Source: Chryseobacterium sp. ERMR1:04 (GTDB taxonomy: Bacteria > Bacteroidota > Bacteroidia > Flavobacteriales > Weeksellaceae). Taken from it: a stretch of 64,000 nucleotides of DNA. Where the stretch lies: assembly GCF_001297705.1 (NCBI RefSeq), contig NZ_LIRF01000008.1, positions 186,001 to 250,000 on the forward strand, in the 5' to 3' direction. Below the pieces are notes generated by a model. It was not told where the DNA came from. It made no database searches and saw nothing but the letters and a program-made list of their open reading frames with translations. The first letter of the stretch is position 1, and each line of letters opens with the position of its first letter. Positions 1-7,848 of this stretch are shown piece by piece. Made by a program: the position numbers and the translations under genes.

Positions 1-1156
1 CTCCGAATTCATTCTTCAATGTAATTGTTGTTAAAAGCCAAGGAACATAGTTGAAATTGTCTGCTCTTCTATTATTAAATATTCTTTCATTGACAAACTG
101 AGGCGTTGCAAATAAAACTTTATCGGCAATAATTTTCTTTGTCTTTTTTTGAACATTATCAAAGCTCAGCACCTCAACATGAGTCTCATTTAATTTTACG
201 TCAAAAACCAAATGATTTACTATATGCTTATCCTTTGTATATTTTGAAAGATGGTTCGCAAGTCTGGCATTTCCTTCCGGCCAAGTAAAAACCTGATCTT
301 TATATTTCTTACTCCAGTTATTTTTCCTTCCTGCAAAATAATGAATCCCCGCCCACGCAGAAACGTACTCTATTCCCAATCCGTAATCGTCGCGACAAGA
401 ATAATCTAATAACCAAAGAAGTTCTTCTGATGTAAAACTATGTGCAGTAAGAAAACCTTTAAAGGTAATTTTCTCCATTTGGATAATATCCTGATCTCTG
501 CTGGAATTTTCAATGGGAATCGTAAACCAATATTTCCCCTGAGTATCTTTTTTCTCACGATACCCATCCATCAATTTAAAAAATCGGGAAATCTCATTCT
601 TTGCTTCGTCAGAAATTCCCTTTTGAGGAACAATATCATTTTGCCATGAATTTTTATAAAACAACCTTTCATTTTGAGGAAACACAAGTTGATAATCATC
701 TAAAATAGGATCTCCATTTTCATCATCTCCCAGATATATTCCACATTCTTTTAAAAACTCAATGACTTCCAGGTCTTCTTTATTCGGTAAAGGAAGGTAG
801 TGAGCACCTAAAGGAAATTTTGAAAATTTATTTTCTCCGTTTGATGAATTTCCGCCTAAATGATCTTCCATTTCGAGCATAAGAAAATCATCAATCCCTT
901 TTTTACTTAATGCTCTGCATGCGGAAAGTCCTGAAATCCCACCACCAACAATTAAAAATTGGGTTTTAATTTCTTCTGAAGCTTTAGGGAAATCTTTCGC
1001 CCATAAACGGTGTCCTAAAACAGAGTTCGTTCCTGTAATTTTAAGTAAAAATGATTTTGCTTTCTTTTCACAATACTGCAAAAAGGAAAGTGCGATTCCT
1101 CCCCAAAATATTGTTGTCAGAAATTCTTTTCTATTGTACTTTTCCCCACTCTTCAT
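1..1156 (-). CDS. FAD-dependent amine-oxidase-like protein (partial, C-terminus outside window)
   Basis: Open reading frame running off the left edge. It starts at ATG 1156 and overlaps the end of the spermidine synthase gene by 26 bases, so the two are translationally linked. The first 30 residues carry an R-K-E-F-L motif (residues 9-13) followed by a hydrophobic stretch, which resembles a twin-arginine signal with one Arg replaced by Lys. A Rossmann dinucleotide motif GGGISG lies near residue 71, followed by an acidic strand end (MLEMEDHLGG), as in flavin monoamine and polyamine oxidases. Last gene seen in the SpeH-SpeE cluster, so a role in oxidising polyamines or an envelope amine is plausible but inferred. 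The substrate cannot be read from the sequence. Confidence 0.75.
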   Translation of the reverse strand, partial: MKSGEKYNRKEFLTTIFWGGIALSFLQYCEKKAKSFLLKITGTNSVLGHRLWAKDFPKASEEIKTQFLIVGGGISGLSACRALSKKGIDDFLMLEMEDHLGGNSSNGENKFSKFPLGAHYLPLPNKEDLEVIEFLKECGIYLGDDENGDPILDDYQLVFPQNERLFYKNSWQNDIVPQKGISDEAKNEISRFFKLMDGYREKKDTQGKYWFTIPIENSSRDQDIIQMEKITFKGFLTAHSFTSEELLWLLDYSCRDDYGLGIEYVSAWAGIHYFAGRKNNWSKKYKDQVFTWPEGNARLANHLSKYTKDKHIVNHLVFDVKLNETHVEVLSFDNVQKKTKKIIADKVLFATPQFVNERIFNNRRADNFNYVPWLLTTITLKNEFG

Positions 1157-2645
1157 CAAAATATCTTACTAAAATTTGATTATCCAGTCGATTAACTTCT
1201 ACCTCTTTCGCCATCATATCTTTGCTAAAATAGCTCATCTGCAGAAAATTATAATCGTAAAATCTTAATCCCGGAATTCTTCGTATTACATGATTATTAA
1301 TTGAATCATTGGAAGCCATACAATATCCCCATTCCCCGAAAGAAGGAACGTAGGTATGATATGCCTTTGTAAAAGGAAATACCTGATTCAATGTTTTCTC
1401 GATACACCAAAAAGATTTCGGCGCAAAATAAGGCGACGTAGTCTGTACTACAATTCTGGTATCTTGAGTTGTTCTATTTTTTAATTCTTTATAAAACTGC
1501 AATGAATATAATTTTCCAAGGCTGTAATTTGAAGGATCCGGAAAGTCAATAATGATTACATCATATTTTTGAGTTGCGTTTTTTACCCATACATAAGCAT
1601 CCTTGTTGATCACTTTTAATTTAGAATTAGAAAGAGAACTATGATTAAGCTTTTTCATGGTTTCATTATCCTTGAAAAAATTTGTCATTTCTCCGTCTAA
1701 ATCTACTAATGTGATATCTTTTACCTCTTTATATTTCAATACTTCACGAACTGCAAAACCATCTCCACCACCTAAAACTAAAACATGATCTACCTTTTTT
1801 GCCATAGACATCGCAGGATGCACCAATGCTTCGTGATAGCGGTATTCATCGGTAGAAGAGAACTGAAGATTATTGTTTAAATACAATCGAAACTCATTGC
1901 TGTTTCTCGTAAGAACAATTCTTTGGTAAGGCGAATTATGAGAATACACAATATTTTCACCATATAATTTCTCTTCCGAAAACGCTAAAATCTTATCTGA
2001 AAAGATAAATAAAACAAGCAGCAATACAAAAGCTCCTATGAATTTCACCTTCAATGAAAAAGGTTTTAGCAAATCATTTTTTAAATAGAAACATAAAAAA
2101 ATAGCTATGGAAATATTAATTAATCCAAAAAACAAAGGCGTTTTAATAATTCCTAAACTGGGAATCAGAACCAATGGAAAAAGAATAGACGCCAATAATG
2201 CTCCCACATAATCAAATGCAAAAACATTAGAAACTAAATCTTTAAACTGAACTTTATCTTGCAAGATATTCATTAACAAAGGGATTTCTAACCCAACTAA
2301 ACATCCCGTGGAAAAAACAAATAGATATAAAGCCCATTCAAAGTGCCCCACCGTATTGAATAAAAGGAAAAGCACCACAGAACTTATTCCACCCACAATC
2401 CCAACTAGGATTTCAATTTCTATGAATTTATCTATTAAACTTCCTTTGATGAATTTTGCCAGATAAGAGCCAACCCCCATCGAAAAAAGATAAACCCCAA
2501 TAATGAATGAAAACTGTTTTACAGAATCTCCCAAAAGGTAACTTGCCAAAGCGCCTGCTACCAATTCATAAATAAGTCCGCAGGTAGCAATTACAAATAC
2601 AGATGATAATAAAAGAATTTCTAAAGACAGTCGTTTTCTATCCAT
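1131..2645 (-). CDS. speE: Membrane-anchored spermidine synthase (polyamine aminopropyltransferase)
   Basis: 504 residues. The first ~220 form about seven hydrophobic segments. The C-terminal half is a spermidine-synthase fold with the decarboxylated-SAM binding motif LGGGDG (about residue 290), the acidic LVDLDGEM strand end and the DFPDPSNYSLGKLYS active-site loop (about residue 367). The family transfers an aminopropyl group from decarboxylated SAM to putrescine or a related amine. The decarboxylase that makes the donor is in the same operon (4536-4895). Fusion to a multi-pass membrane domain is known in this family but not in cytosolic E. coli SpeE, and suggests action at the inner membrane. 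Overlaps the DUF350 gene by 8 bases and the downstream FAD gene by 26. Acceptor specificity is unknown. Confidence 0.88.
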   Translation of the reverse strand: MDRKRLSLEILLLSSVFVIATCGLIYELVAGALASYLLGDSVKQFSFIIGVYLFSMGVGSYLAKFIKGSLIDKFIEIEILVGIVGGISSVVLFLLFNTVGHFEWALYLFVFSTGCLVGLEIPLLMNILQDKVQFKDLVSNVFAFDYVGALLASILFPLVLIPSLGIIKTPLFFGLINISIAIFLCFYLKNDLLKPFSLKVKFIGAFVLLLVLFIFSDKILAFSEEKLYGENIVYSHNSPYQRIVLTRNSNEFRLYLNNNLQFSSTDEYRYHEALVHPAMSMAKKVDHVLVLGGGDGFAVREVLKYKEVKDITLVDLDGEMTNFFKDNETMKKLNHSSLSNSKLKVINKDAYVWVKNATQKYDVIIIDFPDPSNYSLGKLYSLQFYKELKNRTTQDTRIVVQTTSPYFAPKSFWCIEKTLNQVFPFTKAYHTYVPSFGEWGYCMASNDSINNHVIRRIPGLRFYDYNFLQMSYFSKDMMAKEVEVNRLDNQILVRYFDEEWGKVQ

Positions 2646-2853
2646 GAATCGCTGCTCCTATAATGATAGATATCCCGATAATGAAGGCACCAAAAACAAT
2701 TGCCAATGCTGTATTTTTGTTTTGAGAAATCTCATGCCATGTTCTTTCCGGCGTTATTTTTTCCAGAATAAAATAGCAGATCAGTAGAATAATAATTCCT
2801 AAAAATGAATACAGGACTGAATTGATAATCGGCACGTAATTTATATTTTCCAT
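2638..2853 (-). CDS. DUF350 family small membrane protein
   Basis: 71 residues with two hydrophobic helices (about 12-29 and 48-69) separated by a polar loop ITPERTWHEISQNKN, matching a single DUF350 unit (YjfL-type). Larger family members carry two such units. No catalytic motif is visible. Located between the DUF4178/small membrane protein genes and membrane spermidine synthase, with its 3' end overlapping speE by 8 bases. DUF350 genes recur beside polyamine enzymes and DUF4178 genes in other bacteria, so a membrane role tied to polyamines is likely, but the biochemical function is unknown. Confidence 0.8.
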   Translation of the reverse strand: MENINYVPIINSVLYSFLGIIILLICYFILEKITPERTWHEISQNKNTALAIVFGAFIIGISIIIGAAIHG

Positions 2854-2865
2854 AATAGCATGTTT

Positions 2866-3060
2866 TTATTTGTGATAGTATCTGTAGAACCCTCTTCCCG
2901 AAGAATGGCTTCTGGTAGTTCCGTCTCTATACGTTTCTGTTTTTTCGCAATCACAGACTTGGTTTCCGGCATATGTAAGATAGGTAAACCACCCCAGAAA
3001 TGCTCCTCCCATGAGACAGAGAAACCAATTTGCTTTGATATAGTTAAAAATGTGAACCAT
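2866..3060 (-). CDS. Small single-pass membrane protein of unknown function
   Basis: 64 residues. One hydrophobic helix at about 11-31 (WFLCLMGGAFLGWFTYLTYA), then a CDCEKTETYRDGTTRS segment and a Ser/Gly/Arg/Tyr-rich tail. It lies 3 bases after the DUF4178 stop and 12 bases before the DUF350 start, so it fits the operon. A longer reading in another frame (2841-3122) overlaps DUF4178 and lacks protein-like composition, so this frame was chosen. Not recognised as a named family. Confidence 0.65.
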   Translation of the reverse strand: MVHIFNYIKANWFLCLMGGAFLGWFTYLTYAGNQVCDCEKTETYRDGTTRSHSSGRGFYRYYHK

Positions 3061-3063
3061 AAT

Positions 3064-4533
3064 TTAAGATTTAGAATACGGTGAATTTGAACTGTTACTC
3101 CATTTTGAAACATTGAAAACATTTCTTCCCCAATAGCAGATTATAAAAAAGGCAAGCATTAAGATCAAAATAATAGTGAAATTCCAGAAAGAAACCGGAA
3201 GCCATGTTGCTTTGATATTGATAGTGCTGTCATCAGAAACTTTGTTGGCAGGAGGTGATTCTAGTACCGAATTGACCGTTAAAAGAGAATCTAAATTCTG
3301 ATTAGGAAACGTTTGCTTTACCAGTTTCCCTATTTCGGAGGAATCTTTTTCTAGCGTTCTTATGTCTCCAAACGCAACAGATTCTTTTGTACTATTATTT
3401 ACGACGTCTACAATTCCCGAGGCTTCTCTTGAAATGGTGACTCCTTCATTTGAAGGCACAAAATGAGAACTCGTAGAAGTGCCTACTGCATATTGCTTTT
3501 CAGCAGAAATAACAAAATGATATTTTCCGGGAGCAATTCCACATAAATTAAATTCTTCAGTCGTTTTCCCCTCACTCCAATTTTCGCCATCTTCATATCC
3601 GTGATATTGTTCTATATCTTTGGAGGTATAAACCGTTTCGTTGGTACTTTCGTTAACAAGGCTTAACTGTAAATTTGCCCATGAATTATCTACCTCAGAA
3701 TGGGCACTTACCTTCAATGGTGCTGAACCTCCCGAAAGGGTAAAACTTTTGGAAACCATTTCCTTGTTTTTTACATCTTCAAACTTAATGGTATCCTGAA
3801 AAACGGAAGTATTTGTTCGGGAAGTGTAAACATATAATTGAAGCAGGCAGATGAAAAGCCCTGCAATACCCAGAATATTTATCGCTTGCTTTATATCAAT
3901 ATAATAAGGCTGAACGATCCCAATTCCGGAATAATTCGGCATGTGGGAAAGTTTAAAAGATTTTTTAACTAAATGTTTAGAAATATGCTTCCCTGCAAAA
4001 TATTGATTCTTGCTTCCTGACTGTTCCTGAGAAATCATATTCGTTCCATTCACATATTCTTTATAGGTTGCCAGATTAAAATTAAGCTTTTCCTCAAAAA
4101 AACCTTCCGCCGCATGAATACTACATTCTGTGGTTTCATACCATCTGTAATTCCGAGTATGTAATTCTGCTATTTTGGAACTTTTCTTCTTGACATCTTC
4201 TGTATGAACAGGATATAAAAGAACCCAATGCCCATCGCTTTCGCTCAAGAAAGCATCATCTCCTTTCTTATCTTTTAAATAATATTCCCGCCAATAGATC
4301 TCAATTCCATATTTACGGACAACAATAGCGTCAACAGTATATTCTGTATTATCAAGAATTCCTTTTTGCCCAATTTCCAACACTACATTTTCTATCGGCT
4401 TTTTAACTAATTTTTTAGAGAAACTCTTTTCAACATCAATAAGGTATGAGCATGATTTACAAACGTACTCTTCAATAGAGTACATAAAATCACGGGGATT
4501 TTCTGTATTACAAACGGGACAAGTGTAATGCAT
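3064..4533 (-). CDS. DUF4178 domain membrane protein with N-terminal zinc ribbon
   Basis: 489 residues. Four cysteines (C5, C8, C25, C28) form a zinc ribbon, followed by a beta-rich region with motifs such as GQKGILDNTEYTV and YWREYYLKDK typical of DUF4178. Two hydrophobic segments (about 213-233 and 450-470) bracket a long Ser/Thr-rich beta domain (about 240-440) that would sit on one side of the membrane. Starts 2 bases after the speH stop, so the genes are co-transcribed. DUF4178 proteins co-occur with DUF350 and SpeH/SpeE in many bacteria, but their role is not established. Confidence 0.8.
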   Translation of the reverse strand: MHYTCPVCNTENPRDFMYSIEEYVCKSCSYLIDVEKSFSKKLVKKPIENVVLEIGQKGILDNTEYTVDAIVVRKYGIEIYWREYYLKDKKGDDAFLSESDGHWVLLYPVHTEDVKKKSSKIAELHTRNYRWYETTECSIHAAEGFFEEKLNFNLATYKEYVNGTNMISQEQSGSKNQYFAGKHISKHLVKKSFKLSHMPNYSGIGIVQPYYIDIKQAINILGIAGLFICLLQLYVYTSRTNTSVFQDTIKFEDVKNKEMVSKSFTLSGGSAPLKVSAHSEVDNSWANLQLSLVNESTNETVYTSKDIEQYHGYEDGENWSEGKTTEEFNLCGIAPGKYHFVISAEKQYAVGTSTSSHFVPSNEGVTISREASGIVDVVNNSTKESVAFGDIRTLEKDSSEIGKLVKQTFPNQNLDSLLTVNSVLESPPANKVSDDSTINIKATWLPVSFWNFTIILILMLAFFIICYWGRNVFNVSKWSNSSNSPYSKS

Positions 4534-4535
4534 TT

Positions 4536-4895
4536 TTATCGATAAATATTGTGTTTTTGAATAACTTTAGCCTTAAAATATTCAATAATCTCGTCAGCTA
4601 TTTTTTCTACTTTCTCCGTATTATCCTGAAGGTAATTACAAAGGAATACATCAAACGTTAGCTGTTTAAATTCCGGCCAAGTGTGAATACACAGGTGCGA
4701 CTCTTTAAGACAAACCGCAGAAGTAAAACTATTATTTTCAAAAACATGTTCTGTTACCCCTACGATCTCTACTTCCTTTGCTTCTAAAATTTCCTGTGTA
4801 TATTTTAGAAAACCCGTACTGTCTAATAATAAAGCTTCTGACTCCGTTTCCAAAGTCAGAAGAATATGTAAGCCTTTATTGCTTAATGATTTCAA
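4536..4895 (-). CDS. speH: S-adenosylmethionine decarboxylase proenzyme
   Basis: 119 residues, the usual size of the bacterial SpeH class. The motif KESHLCIHTWPE is the self-cleavage region: the chain is expected to break between E65 and S66, with S66 becoming the pyruvoyl cofactor, and the downstream DVFLC supplies the catalytic Cys. The product is decarboxylated SAM, donor for the aminopropyltransferase in the same operon. The best start is TTG at 4895, because no in-frame ATG lies between it and the upstream stop. The gene begins 22 bases after ctlX. Good family match; the start is less sure. Confidence 0.9.
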   Translation of the reverse strand: MKSLSNKGLHILLTLETESEALLLDSTGFLKYTQEILEAKEVEIVGVTEHVFENNSFTSAVCLKESHLCIHTWPEFKQLTFDVFLCNYLQDNTEKVEKIADEIIEYFKAKVIQKHNIYR

Positions 4896-4917: not shown

Positions 4918-5841
4918 TTATTTTTTCGGCAGAAATACCTCAGCCAACATACAACGTGCGCTTCCGCCGCCGTTTACTTCAATAGTATTTAAGTCTGAAT
5001 AAATAATCTCGCAGTATTTTTCAATCGCTGAAACTTGGTCTTGATTTAAAGATTGATAAGCAGTTTGGCTCATTACCAAAAACTTTTCACCGTCTTTATT
5101 TTGTACCTGAAGCATATTTCCTGCAAATTGCTGCATTTGCTCTTCAGAAATTTCAATAATTTCTTTTCCTGAATTTTTGATGGTCTCGATCACTTTGCTT
5201 CTTTCCAATTCATTATCGATACAATCAAGGCAAATAACCACGAATTTGTCTGCCACACACATCATAACATTCGTATGATAAATTGGAAGTCTTTCTGAAC
5301 CTACCGTTTGAAAAGAATGAAAAACAATTGGTGTAAACCCATATTTATCACAGAATTCTCTGAATAATTTTTCATCTAATCGTAAAGAAACTGATCCATA
5401 CGCCAATTTATTATCGTGATCAAAAATCATACTTCCCGTTCCTTCCAAAAAGTGGCCTTGGATTTCCGGCAATGACCAGTCATCAATTTCAGAAACTTCA
5501 AAACCTTGTTCTTTTATTGTTTCAATAATATCTTCTCTTCTTTCCACTCTTCTGTTGGAAGCAAACATCGGATATAAAACTACTTTTCCATCTTTATGGA
5601 AACTCACCCAGTTGTTGGGAAAAATAGAATCCGGTGTGTGCGGATCCAACGTATCTTTTATCGTAATGACATTGATTCCTTTACTTCTTAATTTTTCAGC
5701 GAAAATATTAAATTCTGCCAACGCCTTCGACTGAACATCGGCACTCTTTTGGTCAACCTGAAAATAATTGTTTTCTGCCGTTTCTGCGTTATAACCGAAT
5801 GCAATCGGCTCTATCATTAATACTGTATCTGTTGTCTGCAT
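4918..5841 (-). CDS. ctlX: Citrulline hydrolase-like guanidino-group-modifying enzyme (CtlX type)
   Basis: 307 residues of the amidinotransferase/arginine deiminase superfamily. The N-terminal pattern VLMIEPIAFGYNAETAENN, the FPNNWVSFHKDG segment, LEGTGSMIFD, the IYHTNVMM histidine motif and the C-terminal NGGGSARCM with Cys297 are those of citrulline-utilisation hydrolases. These release ornithine from citrulline using a Cys nucleophile. Its position 22 bases upstream of speH suggests a supply of ornithine towards putrescine and spermidine, but no ornithine decarboxylase is present here. Substrate is inferred from family resemblance only; other ureido or guanidino substrates remain possible. 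Confidence 0.78.
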   Translation of the reverse strand: MQTTDTVLMIEPIAFGYNAETAENNYFQVDQKSADVQSKALAEFNIFAEKLRSKGINVITIKDTLDPHTPDSIFPNNWVSFHKDGKVVLYPMFASNRRVERREDIIETIKEQGFEVSEIDDWSLPEIQGHFLEGTGSMIFDHDNKLAYGSVSLRLDEKLFREFCDKYGFTPIVFHSFQTVGSERLPIYHTNVMMCVADKFVVICLDCIDNELERSKVIETIKNSGKEIIEISEEQMQQFAGNMLQVQNKDGEKFLVMSQTAYQSLNQDQVSAIEKYCEIIYSDLNTIEVNGGGSARCMLAEVFLPKK

Positions 5842-5960: not shown

Positions 5961-6362
5961 TTATTTTCTATCTTGATCTGCTGAAGAAAATGTACACCAA
6001 CTTTGTGACTGACTCATCATATTCACCAACATCCCTATTATTTGATTATACTGATTGTTTAAATTATTAAATTGTCCTTCATTGATATAATTGCATTTCC
6101 AAGCAAACTGAAGCCAGGTTTGAGTTTCTCTCGCCTCGCCTTCAGAATCTGTAAGTTTGGCAACAAAAGATTTCTCATATTTCCGCTTTCCCCAAGCCTC
6201 ACTAATATTTGCTGAAACTGATCTTGAAGATCTTCGAATTTGGTCTGTAAGAGAATAAAGTTCTTCCTTCGGAAAAGATTTTGAAAGTTCAAAAATAATC
6301 ATGGCTACATCAACCGATTTTTGAAAGACCTTTAAATCCTGATGAAATTTAATTATTGACAT
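5961..6362 (-). CDS. Four-helix bundle protein, 23S rRNA IVS (S23) family
   Basis: 133 residues with the family signature: FHQDLKVFQKSVDVAM near the start, LTDQIRRSSRSVSANISEAWGKR in the middle and SEGEARETQTWL in the third helix. Only the C-terminal tail (SSADQDRK) is unusual. Members form small oligomeric four-helix bundles and are encoded in 23S rRNA intervening sequences and as stand-alone genes; the molecular role is unproven. It interrupts the run from the second hydrolase gene to ctlX and is flanked by inverted repeats (5866-5886, 6403-6443), which suggests it was inserted as a unit. Confidence 0.85.
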   Translation of the reverse strand: MSIIKFHQDLKVFQKSVDVAMIIFELSKSFPKEELYSLTDQIRRSSRSVSANISEAWGKRKYEKSFVAKLTDSEGEARETQTWLQFAWKCNYINEGQFNNLNNQYNQIIGMLVNMMSQSQSWCTFSSADQDRK

Positions 6363-6458: not shown

Positions 6459-7373
6459 TTAGTCTCTAACAAGCGGCATTGTAGAACATCTCAACAATCC
6501 TCCCATCTTAGAAATTTCTCTGTAAGGAATTTCTTCAACGGTCATTCCCCACTCGTTTCTCAGGTGATTGTTCATTCTGGTGAATGTTTGGTCTGAAACT
6601 ACAATTTCGGGAGAGATTGAGAAGATATTCGGGAACATTTCAAACATCTCTTCGTCTGTAACGTGGAAACAGTTTTCTTCTCCGAAAATATCAATGATCA
6701 GTCTATAATCACTTTCATCCACAAAACCATCTTTGTAAATAATACATTTATCTTTCCCAATAGGGTTAAATGTGCAATCTAAATGTAAAATACCCTCAAA
6801 TGGAATCTTATCGTTCTTCTTTAATTCTAAATCGATAATTCTTTTCTTTGGAAAGTATTCTTTTAGAATTTCTATCGCGTATTCGTTGGTTCTTGCTGTT
6901 TTATAATTTCTATAATCTTCGCTGAAGCATGTTCCGATAAAAATAAAATCATCCCAAACAATAACATCACCACCTTCAATATGAGCCGTTTCCGGAAGGT
7001 TGATAATGTTTCTCCATGCTACTTTTTCGTACACATTCTTGTAAGCTTCCTGCTCATCTGCTCTGTCGGCAATGACGTTGGAAATAATCATTTTATCATC
7101 AATCACAAAAGCTACATCTCTTGCGAAAACCTGATTGTAATCTTTAATGATACTTGGGCGTAGAACTTCTACATCATATTTTTTTAAAACTGCTTCAAAA
7201 GCATTCATTTCATTAACGATATCCTCTTCTTTAGGATACATATTATGTTGGATTGAGTAGTATGACTTGGCGTCATAACTTTCCTCAAGTGCGGGAACGG
7301 GTCCCATTGAATTAGGTTGGCCTAGAACTACCGATCTTAGCCTCCCCGTTTCGTTTTTAATGTTTAGTTTCAT
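6459..7373 (-). CDS. Amidinotransferase/arginine-deiminase-family hydrolase (DDAH-like)
   Basis: 304 residues. Superfamily motifs are in order: VLGQPN near the start, FARDVAFV (about residue 90), HIEGGDVIVWDD (about 135), the catalytic histidine in LHLDCTFNP and the nucleophilic Cys296 in LRCSTMPL. These fit enzymes that hydrolyse guanidino compounds (arginine deiminase, dimethylarginine hydrolase) or transfer amidino groups. Its sequence differs clearly from the CtlX-type neighbour, so it is not a tandem duplicate. The exact substrate is unknown; the context suggests arginine-derived compounds feeding citrulline, ornithine or polyamines. A TATATTTG box lies 20 bases upstream. Confidence 0.8.
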   Translation of the reverse strand: MKLNIKNETGRLRSVVLGQPNSMGPVPALEESYDAKSYYSIQHNMYPKEEDIVNEMNAFEAVLKKYDVEVLRPSIIKDYNQVFARDVAFVIDDKMIISNVIADRADEQEAYKNVYEKVAWRNIINLPETAHIEGGDVIVWDDFIFIGTCFSEDYRNYKTARTNEYAIEILKEYFPKKRIIDLELKKNDKIPFEGILHLDCTFNPIGKDKCIIYKDGFVDESDYRLIIDIFGEENCFHVTDEEMFEMFPNIFSISPEIVVSDQTFTRMNNHLRNEWGMTVEEIPYREISKMGGLLRCSTMPLVRD

Positions 7374-7683: not shown

Positions 7684-7848
7684 ATGAACAAGAAAAATCC
7701 CGTGCTAAAACATGCACAAAAACTAGGAAGAGATCAACAAAAATCAATTAAAGGAGGCATTGGAATCGGCGGACCAAGATACTGCTGTGAATGGAATGAC
7801 GATGGATCATGCCGAATTTGGACTTGCGGTAACTGTGTTTGTCCGTAA
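7684..7848 (+). CDS. GG-leader, six-cysteine bacteriocin-like peptide
   Basis: 54 residues from ATG 7684. The N-terminal ~25 residues are charged and lead to SIKGG (G24-G25), a double-glycine leader of the type removed by peptidase-ABC exporters. The remaining ~29 residues are Gly-rich and hold six cysteines (34, 35, 43, 48, 51, 53) and two Trp, which suggests disulfides or other crosslinks. It is followed 13 bases later by a strong terminator, so it is a monocistronic unit. No transporter, immunity or modification gene is adjacent. A second peptide of the same design is at 62559. Antibacterial or signalling activity is inferred only. Confidence 0.8.
   Translation: MNKKNPVLKHAQKLGRDQQKSIKGGIGIGGPRYCCEWNDDGSCRIWTCGNCVCP

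Follow-up and report, generated by a model that had tools for sequence, protein, structure and literature searches.

Operons in which a spermidine-synthase-like domain fused to seven transmembrane (TM) segments is encoded with DUF350 and DUF4178 proteins and a CesT/Tir-PspA pair form the second group of Ravi et al. (2024), and are functionally uncharacterised in the part of that paper which treats them (PMC11237479). The third group, in the same part of the source, comprises operons of a glutathionylspermidine-synthetase-like ATP-grasp protein and DUF350, with variants containing S-adenosylmethionine decarboxylase (AdoMetDC) and polyamine oxidase. The 64 000-nucleotide stretch of Chryseobacterium sp. 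ERMR1:04 investigated here (contig NZ_LIRF01000008.1, positions 186 001 to 250 000; the window) opens with a related set of genes. These encode SpeD, a DUF4178 membrane protein, a small protein, a DUF350 protein, a membrane-fused aminopropyltransferase (SpeE-7TM), a flavin adenine dinucleotide (FAD) oxidase, and a membrane protein of 342 amino acids (aa), TM342, and are read as a single conserved operon, presumably co-transcribed. AdoMetDC (SpeD), an MFS-SpdSyn fusion, and DUF350 were reportedly found clustered by Li et al. in 2019, with no complementation of a spermidine synthase mutant. It is proposed, with about an even chance of being correct, that the operon is a membrane-anchored aminopropyl-transfer module, accessory to the ordinary polyamines, that acts on an acceptor other than putrescine.

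The operon is a sibling variant of the known, uncharacterised PspA-linked kind. It has in common with the second group the 7TM-fused spermidine-synthase-like domain, DUF350, and DUF4178 in one operon, and differs from that group, as far as the relevant part of PMC11237479 describes it, in several respects. The present genome has no PspA gene, the DUF350 protein is a single two-TM unit of 71 aa instead of an eight-TM protein, and the DUF4178 domain is joined to a long region with two TM segments. The core genes are not interrupted by a lipoprotein gene, and four genes are additional, those for SpeD, the FAD oxidase, the small protein, and TM342. The absence of PspA, first remarked on for the window, holds genome-wide, with 0 matches to PF04012. 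Unlike the third group as given there, none of the seven proteins, which were the extent of this search, has a Pfam match to ATP-grasp, DUF1190, DUF2491, DUF4247, or DUF2617; the whole genome was not searched for ATP-grasp. The literature searched on DUF350, DUF4178, and membrane or fused spermidine synthases contained no description of the exact seven-gene set, and within that literature no operon was found to combine the small protein, TM342, and an oxidase placed immediately behind SpeE-7TM. The first-pass annotation had called the cluster a candidate uncharacterised system, which is right, although the association of SpeE-7TM, DUF350, and DUF4178 had already been published (in the part of PMC11237479 noted above).

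Gene order and packing

Six of the genes are minus-strand open reading frames (ORFs) in the window, as first annotated, and the family assignments were confirmed by Pfam and NCBIfam matches. The first is SpeD (4536..4895; 119 aa from a TTG start), a class 1b S-adenosylmethionine decarboxylase-like protein (PF02675). It is followed by the DUF4178 membrane protein (3064..4533; 489 aa; PF13785), the small protein (2866..3060; 64 aa), whose position between DUF4178 and DUF350 is conserved, and the DUF350 protein (2638..2853; 71 aa; PF03994), which is one two-helix unit. SpeE-7TM (1131..2645; 504 aa; PF01564/NF002956) has approximately seven N-terminal membrane segments and an aminopropyltransferase domain at residues ~230-480. 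The FAD oxidase, of the flavin amine oxidoreductase superfamily, occupies 1..1156 from an ATG at 1156 (or a TTG at 1159) and runs off the window. A locus sequence reaching to the left of window base 1 (L002) completes the gene, which encodes 531 aa (L002 9564-11159). All six genes are real, but on this extension the set proved to be incomplete, with the seventh gene, TM342 (L002 8539-9567, which is contig C8 184539-185567), lying entirely outside the window after the FAD oxidase and overlapping the end of its gene by 4 nt.

The tight packing with overlaps that had been pointed out is borne out by gaps, in order from SpeD, of 2, 3, 12, −8, and −26 nt when the FAD gene is read from its ATG; the SpeE/FAD overlap is 29 nt if the TTG at 1159 is the start. 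A promoter scan found 23 promoter-like sites versus 32.3 in shuffles, a terminator scan found 6 terminator-like sites versus 3.9 in shuffles, and an Rfam search of L002 returned no match.

Conservation of the operon

Among 197 sampled genomes of the family Weeksellaceae, SpeD is present in 46 and a strong SpeE match (E of 6e-12 or better) in 45, all of them within the 46, with one copy each. With weak matches included, 81 of the 197 have PF01564 above its cut-off, none of them exceeding 37 bits outside the 45; DUF4178 was recognised through PF13785 in 34. The loci of 45 of the 46 genomes were read, 33 found by DUF4178 and 12 by SpeD/SpeE alone; G156, whose first locus (L018) is 2,556 bases, was left out. 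Conservation of gene order in relatives was the check that the first-pass annotation had put forward, and SpeD, DUF4178, DUF350, SpeE-7TM, and the FAD oxidase stand in this order in 43 of the 45 loci. The exceptions are L063, with SpeD and a short DUF4178 only, and L199, in which SpeD and SpeE are divergent and there is no other partner. Two of the 43 have altered frames: SpeE-7TM and the oxidase form one frame of 1026 aa in L043 (11667-14747), consistent with a small slip within the SpeE/oxidase overlap, and the oxidase of L055 is split over two frames, each being either a sequencing error or a real change. TM342 comes next after the oxidase in 40 of the 45.

To look beyond the family, a set of named genomes was picked by alignment to SpeE-7TM alone, as the best 80 of at least 565 relatives, and partners were counted within 6 kb on the same strand. 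SpeD is found in 62 of these 80 loci, DUF4178 in 70, DUF350 in 66, the oxidase in 66, and TM342 in 42; SpeD, DUF4178, DUF350, and the oxidase are all beside SpeE-7TM in 54, and none of the four is in 8. The term well-flanked is used for the 52 of the 80 loci in which SpeE has 3.5 kb or more on each side. Here the counts are SpeD 50, DUF4178 50, DUF350 48, oxidase 48, and TM342 34, with all four partners in 44 loci and none in a single one (L155). The other 28 have under 3.5 kb on one side; ten of them still have all four partners and seven have none. Outside the Bacteroidota, all four partners are present in 11 of 16 well-flanked loci. TM342 is always accompanied by the oxidase in the named loci (42/42), and the sole Weeksellaceae locus where this is otherwise is L043, with its oxidase fused to SpeE.

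By label, DUF4178, DUF350, and the oxidase accompany SpeE-7TM in nine phyla: Bacteroidota, Pseudomonadota, Acidobacteriota, Myxococcota, Verrucomicrobiota, Gemmatimonadota, Spirochaetota, Bdellovibrionota, and Elusimicrobiota. Single phylum labels may be wrong, because many of the loci are metagenome bins. In some loci the DUF4178 gene is present twice. The SpeE-7TM of L131, titled Comamonas sp. KCTC 72670, falls inside the Myxococcota branch, either through transfer or through a mislabelled record.

In the phylum set (L076-L085), all four partners are present in only 3 of 9 well-flanked loci. Five of its loci, all from Bacteroidota (L076, L077, L078, L080, and L082), carry another branch of SpeE-7TM, and L081 is without the oxidase. 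In this other branch DUF350 has 281-299 aa where it was found (L076, L077, L078, and L080), and in L077 DUF4178 stands in a gene of its own (184 aa), in a locus that also has a 247-aa ORF with no Pfam match. A long branch, starred in a quick tree to which a long-branch warning applies, separates these sequences from the present type. DUF4178 is uncommon in the phylum (12 of 296 genomes). As loci were partly picked by DUF4178 in the Weeksellaceae and phylum sets, counts of DUF4178 are circular there.

The aminopropyltransferase and its substrate supply

SpeE-7TM is a full-length membrane-fused aminopropyltransferase of the NF002956/PRK03612 kind, matching NF002956 over residues 7-503 of 504 with 640 bits versus 472; PF01564 scores 133 bits, and approximately seven membrane segments at the N-terminus are predicted from hydropathy. 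It falls under the cut-offs of the canonical spermidine synthase equivalogs TIGR00417 (146.4 bits, cut-off 249.55) and NF002010 (172.5 bits, cut-off 260). The solved relatives of the SpeE domain are spermidine and thermospermine synthases and other aminopropyltransferases. Residues Y270, D315, D349, D367, P369, D370, and P371 are invariant in 121 of 121 SpeE-7TM sequences, and of these Y270, D315, D349, and D367 are taken to be catalytic positions or part of the site for decarboxylated S-adenosylmethionine (dcSAM), as in spermidine synthases. Like soluble SpeE, the protein thus has an aminopropyltransferase domain with what is presumably the catalytic Asp; unlike soluble SpeE, it has a fused membrane domain, and the loop after this Asp is D-x-P-D-P in all 121, versus D-L-T-D-P, D-L-A-D-P, and D-S-T-E-P in the three solved enzymes compared. 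Because the catalytic residues are invariant and the loop is always D-x-P-D-P, SpeE-7TM is read as a probably active aminopropyltransferase with an altered acceptor side. PADLOC matched part of SpeE (residues 281-425, E 1.2e-15) to mad2, a component of the MADS defence system; this was rejected as a sign of a defence gene, the match probably being due to the shared Rossmann domain.

SpeD of the window is the only SpeD match in a whole-genome search. It scores 70.7 bits with PF02675 and 63.6 bits with the equivalog TIGR03330, under the cut-off of 75.65. In class 1b AdoMet decarboxylases, the part of PMC10407285 dealing with them gives S63 of Thermotoga maritima as the self-processing Ser and H68 and C83 as the catalytic His and Cys; S66, H71, and C86 of the window SpeD match this spacing. 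P74 is invariant in the alignment of operon SpeDs (99/99) and may correspond to the Pro that is diagnostic of AdoMetDC versus arginine decarboxylase.

The present SpeE-7TM is the only strong SpeE in the genome. Its other polyamine-related genes encode two PF02784 proteins, namely a diaminopimelate decarboxylase and a single arginine decarboxylase-like protein that falls below its curated cut-offs, and a member of the deoxyhypusine synthase family. No carboxyspermidine enzyme was recognised, three of the five PF03435 places having been read and the two weakest being under the cut-off. The three PF03435 proteins read were considered as carboxyspermidine dehydrogenases and rejected, being identified by eye as HemA-like, a polysaccharide-type epimerase, and an unrelated-looking oxidoreductase.

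The deoxyhypusine-synthase-family gene is present in 194 of the 197 family genomes, with or without the cluster, and the three genomes that lack it have completeness values of 80, 56, and 93 per cent. The protein is over the Pfam cut-off and under all NCBIfam equivalogs (126 versus 450 bits for the homospermidine model); since no equivalog cut-off is passed, 'homospermidine synthase' is a family-level reading. The deoxyhypusine synthase homologue SpeY is one route to homospermidine according to the portion of PMC10407285 on that pathway, and the relevant portion of the Weeksella genome paper (PMC3072086) states that every member of the family, in its definition at the time, has homospermidine as its major polyamine. 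No report of sym-homospermidine in Chryseobacterium was found in the literature searched. As the gene is near-universal and homospermidine the main polyamine, the cluster is likely to be an optional, accessory pathway and not the bulk polyamine supply.

One alternative is that SpeE-7TM makes spermidine from putrescine at the membrane, the membrane domain passing it outward and an exported polyamine oxidase degrading or tuning it. The SpeE domain does match spermidine and thermospermine synthases and passes the NCBIfam cut-off for polyamine aminopropyltransferases, it is the sole strong SpeE in a genome without a recognised carboxyspermidine route, and polyamine oxidases are best (single-sequence search) or second (profile search) among the solved relatives of the oxidase. 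This is countered by the invariant Pro of the acceptor loop, by homospermidine being the reported main polyamine, and by the oxidase match lying mainly in an FAD-binding N-terminus common to the superfamily. Moreover, the part of PMC12803844 that deals with a fungal membrane protein-aminopropyltransferase fusion states that experiments showed its bacterial homologues to have no part in making spermidine or spermine, and cites for this Li et al. (2019), a study that PMC11237479 cites as well. Spermidine synthesis at the membrane is therefore considered somewhat unlikely. Of the earlier proposal of polyamine synthesis or turnover at the envelope, the location has stood up, being well supported by predicted membrane segments, the membrane domain of SpeE, and the export-type motif of most oxidases described below; polyamine as the product is not established, given that negative statement and a homospermidine-type gene that occurs independently of the cluster.

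DUF4178, the small protein, and DUF350

The DUF4178 protein (PF13785, 34.2 bits versus a cut-off of 25) consists of an N-terminal CxxC...CxxC, the DUF4178 domain, a TM segment at ~217-235, a middle region of ~200 aa, and a second TM segment at ~447-465, the segments being predicted from hydropathy. The four Cys, a zinc ribbon-like pair motif, are invariant in 13 of 13 aligned homologues. The small protein has no match in Pfam or NCBIfam and no segment over the hydropathy threshold, and ends in a CDC...KTE...YYHK tail. By eye, the C-terminal tail of the DUF4178 protein in L064, L085, and L111 looks like the separate small protein, a likeness that suggests a gene fusion linking the two. DUF350 (PF03994, 53.5 bits) has two hydrophobic segments by hydropathy, and its G19 and N47 are invariant in 104 aligned homologues of 60-160 aa.

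These proteins raise the alternative of a PspA-less branch of envelope-stress systems, in which DUF4178, DUF350, and sometimes a band-7 protein would be a membrane-integrity platform, with the enzymes adjusting membrane charge or polyamine level under stress. It draws on the co-occurrence, described above from PMC11237479, of SpeE-7TM, DUF350, and DUF4178 with PspA and CesT/Tir chaperones; on a group of ORFs resembling one another, found no more than 7 kb from SpeE in 13 loci, the one member scanned being a band-7/SPFH protein; and on Solitalea (L121), which repeats the DUF4178-DUF350 unit inside the operon. Set against this, PspA is absent from the genome; of the 197 family genomes 28 have a PspA match that passes the cut-off, among them just 8 of the 45 with strong SpeE, where it lies at other places, and the band-7 group includes no Weeksellaceae locus. 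Such a stress branch is quite improbable.

The FAD oxidase and TM342

The full oxidase scores 31.9 bits with PF01593, versus 19.8, and 48.6 bits with PF13450; 10 of 11 aligned oxidases match PF01593 at E 0.001. Polyamine oxidases are its top solved relatives in a single-sequence search and are second to a putative aminooxidase in a profile search. What it has in common with polyamine and monoamine oxidases is concentrated in the N-terminal FAD-binding part, which is common to the whole superfamily, so that the match does not by itself point to a substrate. A twin-arginine translocation (Tat)-like motif, R-[RK]-x-F plus a hydrophobic residue or Ala, is near the N-terminus in 81 of 93 oxidases, that of the window being R-K-x-F-L. 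Inspection by eye shows L-x-[AS]-C, which is lipobox-like, after this motif in outgroups (L064, L083, and L085 among them) and L-Q-Y-C after it in the window. No segment of the oxidase is over the hydropathy threshold. It is likely from these motifs that the oxidase is exported.

TM342 has several membrane segments by hydropathy, and searches of Pfam, NCBIfam, and solved-structure sequences gave no credible match for it. A model built from 51 sequences (predicted local distance difference test, pLDDT, 91.2; predicted template modelling score, pTM, 0.89) is an all-helical membrane protein; an earlier model from 8 sequences, with pLDDT 52.7, was dropped. Searched against the PDB, the model had no match at E 0.001, and VIA-align rows reached Z 6.4 (rhodopsins and UbiA-type proteins), under the level that is meaningful for helical proteins, so the predicted structure establishes neither a new nor a known fold. 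H57, H112, H241, and H327 lie on four separate helices and are invariant in 51 of 51 near relatives and kept in 8 of 8 distant relatives; these eight come from 11 candidates, of which 3 were dropped, and include L195, probably in a wrong frame. Q116 and D331 are likewise kept in all 8, D54 and R115 in 7 of the 8, whereas E288 and E289 are invariant in the near family only. The histidines may form a site for a metal or haem within the membrane.

TM342 or a distant relative occurs in 23 of 395 genomes of the phylum. The distant relatives at L192 1450-2628 and L186 1360-2685 (392-441 aa) have the conserved histidines and no significant Pfam match, and no operon partner was seen beside them in these two small loci.

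Neighbouring genes

Upstream of SpeD by 22 nt is CtlX (window 4918-5841; NF046062, 438.8 bits), and farther upstream is an arginine deiminase/dihydrolase-like gene (6459-7373). Both genes accompany the operon in every one of the 29 well-flanked loci of Weeksellaceae that were found through DUF4178; in the 12 loci found by SpeD/SpeE alone, CtlX is in 9 and the arginine deiminase-like gene in 8. In the well-flanked named loci, CtlX, the arginine deiminase-like gene, and a GH43-like gene are each present in 6 of 52, which is the number of Chryseobacterium records there; these flanks are conserved only near home. A link by arginine supply, with CtlX and the arginine deiminase-like protein providing ornithine for polyamines, was rejected on the same count, both genes being in only those 6 loci, and the two are lineage-specific neighbours that are not part of the system.

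Between them lies a 133-aa ORF (5961-6362), with similar ORFs near the operon in 11 loci, which we take to be like the four-helix-bundle protein of rRNA intervening sequences. A 54-aa ORF on the plus strand (7684-7848) has a Cys-rich tail and a leader whose last residues are GG-like, and presumably resembles a small secreted or bacteriocin-type peptide.

Proposed function

In the proposed aminopropyl-transfer module, SpeD would supply dcSAM, and the 7-TM domain would hold the SpeE domain at the inner face of the membrane, where the aminopropyl group would pass to an acceptor other than putrescine that is associated with the membrane. DUF350 and DUF4178 may be a membrane platform or sensor. The FAD oxidase, if exported and anchored outside, could oxidise or remove an amine on the product, and TM342, where present, might carry out a further membrane-embedded step at the site with four invariant histidines. 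A more specific version is an envelope aminopropylation cycle, in which the aminopropyl group of dcSAM is placed onto a membrane-bound lipid, lipid-linked precursor, or quinone-like molecule, and the Tat-exported oxidase at the outer face and TM342 then oxidise or remodel the product; in this full form it is clearly unlikely.

A number of observations weigh against the module. By itself, the NF002956 family score would label SpeE-7TM as a polyamine aminopropyltransferase. The homologues to which the statement in PMC12803844 refers presumably, but not certainly, include the present branch. In 21 of 99 operon SpeDs, every one of them from Bacteroidota (L083, L113, L115-L127, L133-L136, L146, and L157), a Ser takes the place of C86, and because this is the catalytic Cys, the supply of dcSAM is uncertain in those operons. 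The oxidase of the window has R-K rather than R-R, and its lipobox is imperfect. TM342 is missing in 18 of the 52 well-flanked loci and is therefore not core, and G016 retains divergent SpeD and SpeE without any other operon gene. The eight partnerless named loci (L132, L151, L152, L155, L159, L160, L161, and L164) belong here as well, six of them having at least 4 kb on at least one side; SpeE-7TM can therefore stand without the operon in part of its range. By title, L151, L152, L155, L159, and L160 are Proteobacteria and L161 and L164 Myxococcota. All eight are also without TM342, and under looser search settings just one partner gene came to light, an oxidase in L132. In L155 the neighbours are riboflavin-synthesis, YceI, and GGDEF-EAL genes.

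Taken furthest, the partnerless loci, together with the TM342 relatives that stand elsewhere in the phylum with no partner gene in the two small loci read, would mean that the genes share no function and are adjacent only as a relic of their ancestral arrangement. Yet the order is similar in nine phyla despite changing flanks, the genes overlap, and SpeD and SpeE are present or absent together, a co-inheritance that already argues against this explanation, which is scarcely credible.

For the aminopropyl-transfer module, the operon ties fixed partners to the question of which acceptor a membrane-fused aminopropyltransferase uses: a SpeD dedicated to it, a flavin oxidase that is probably exported, and, in many cases, a membrane protein with four histidines. 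The cluster is optional in Chryseobacterium and its relatives, nearly all of which have the homospermidine-type gene, and its deletion should therefore be viable; the product missing from such a deletion could be found by comparative lipid and amine profiling. If the aminopropylation cycle is true, it would be an ancient membrane modification apart from polyamine metabolism. The operon is probably the basis of a widespread envelope chemistry across several bacterial phyla.

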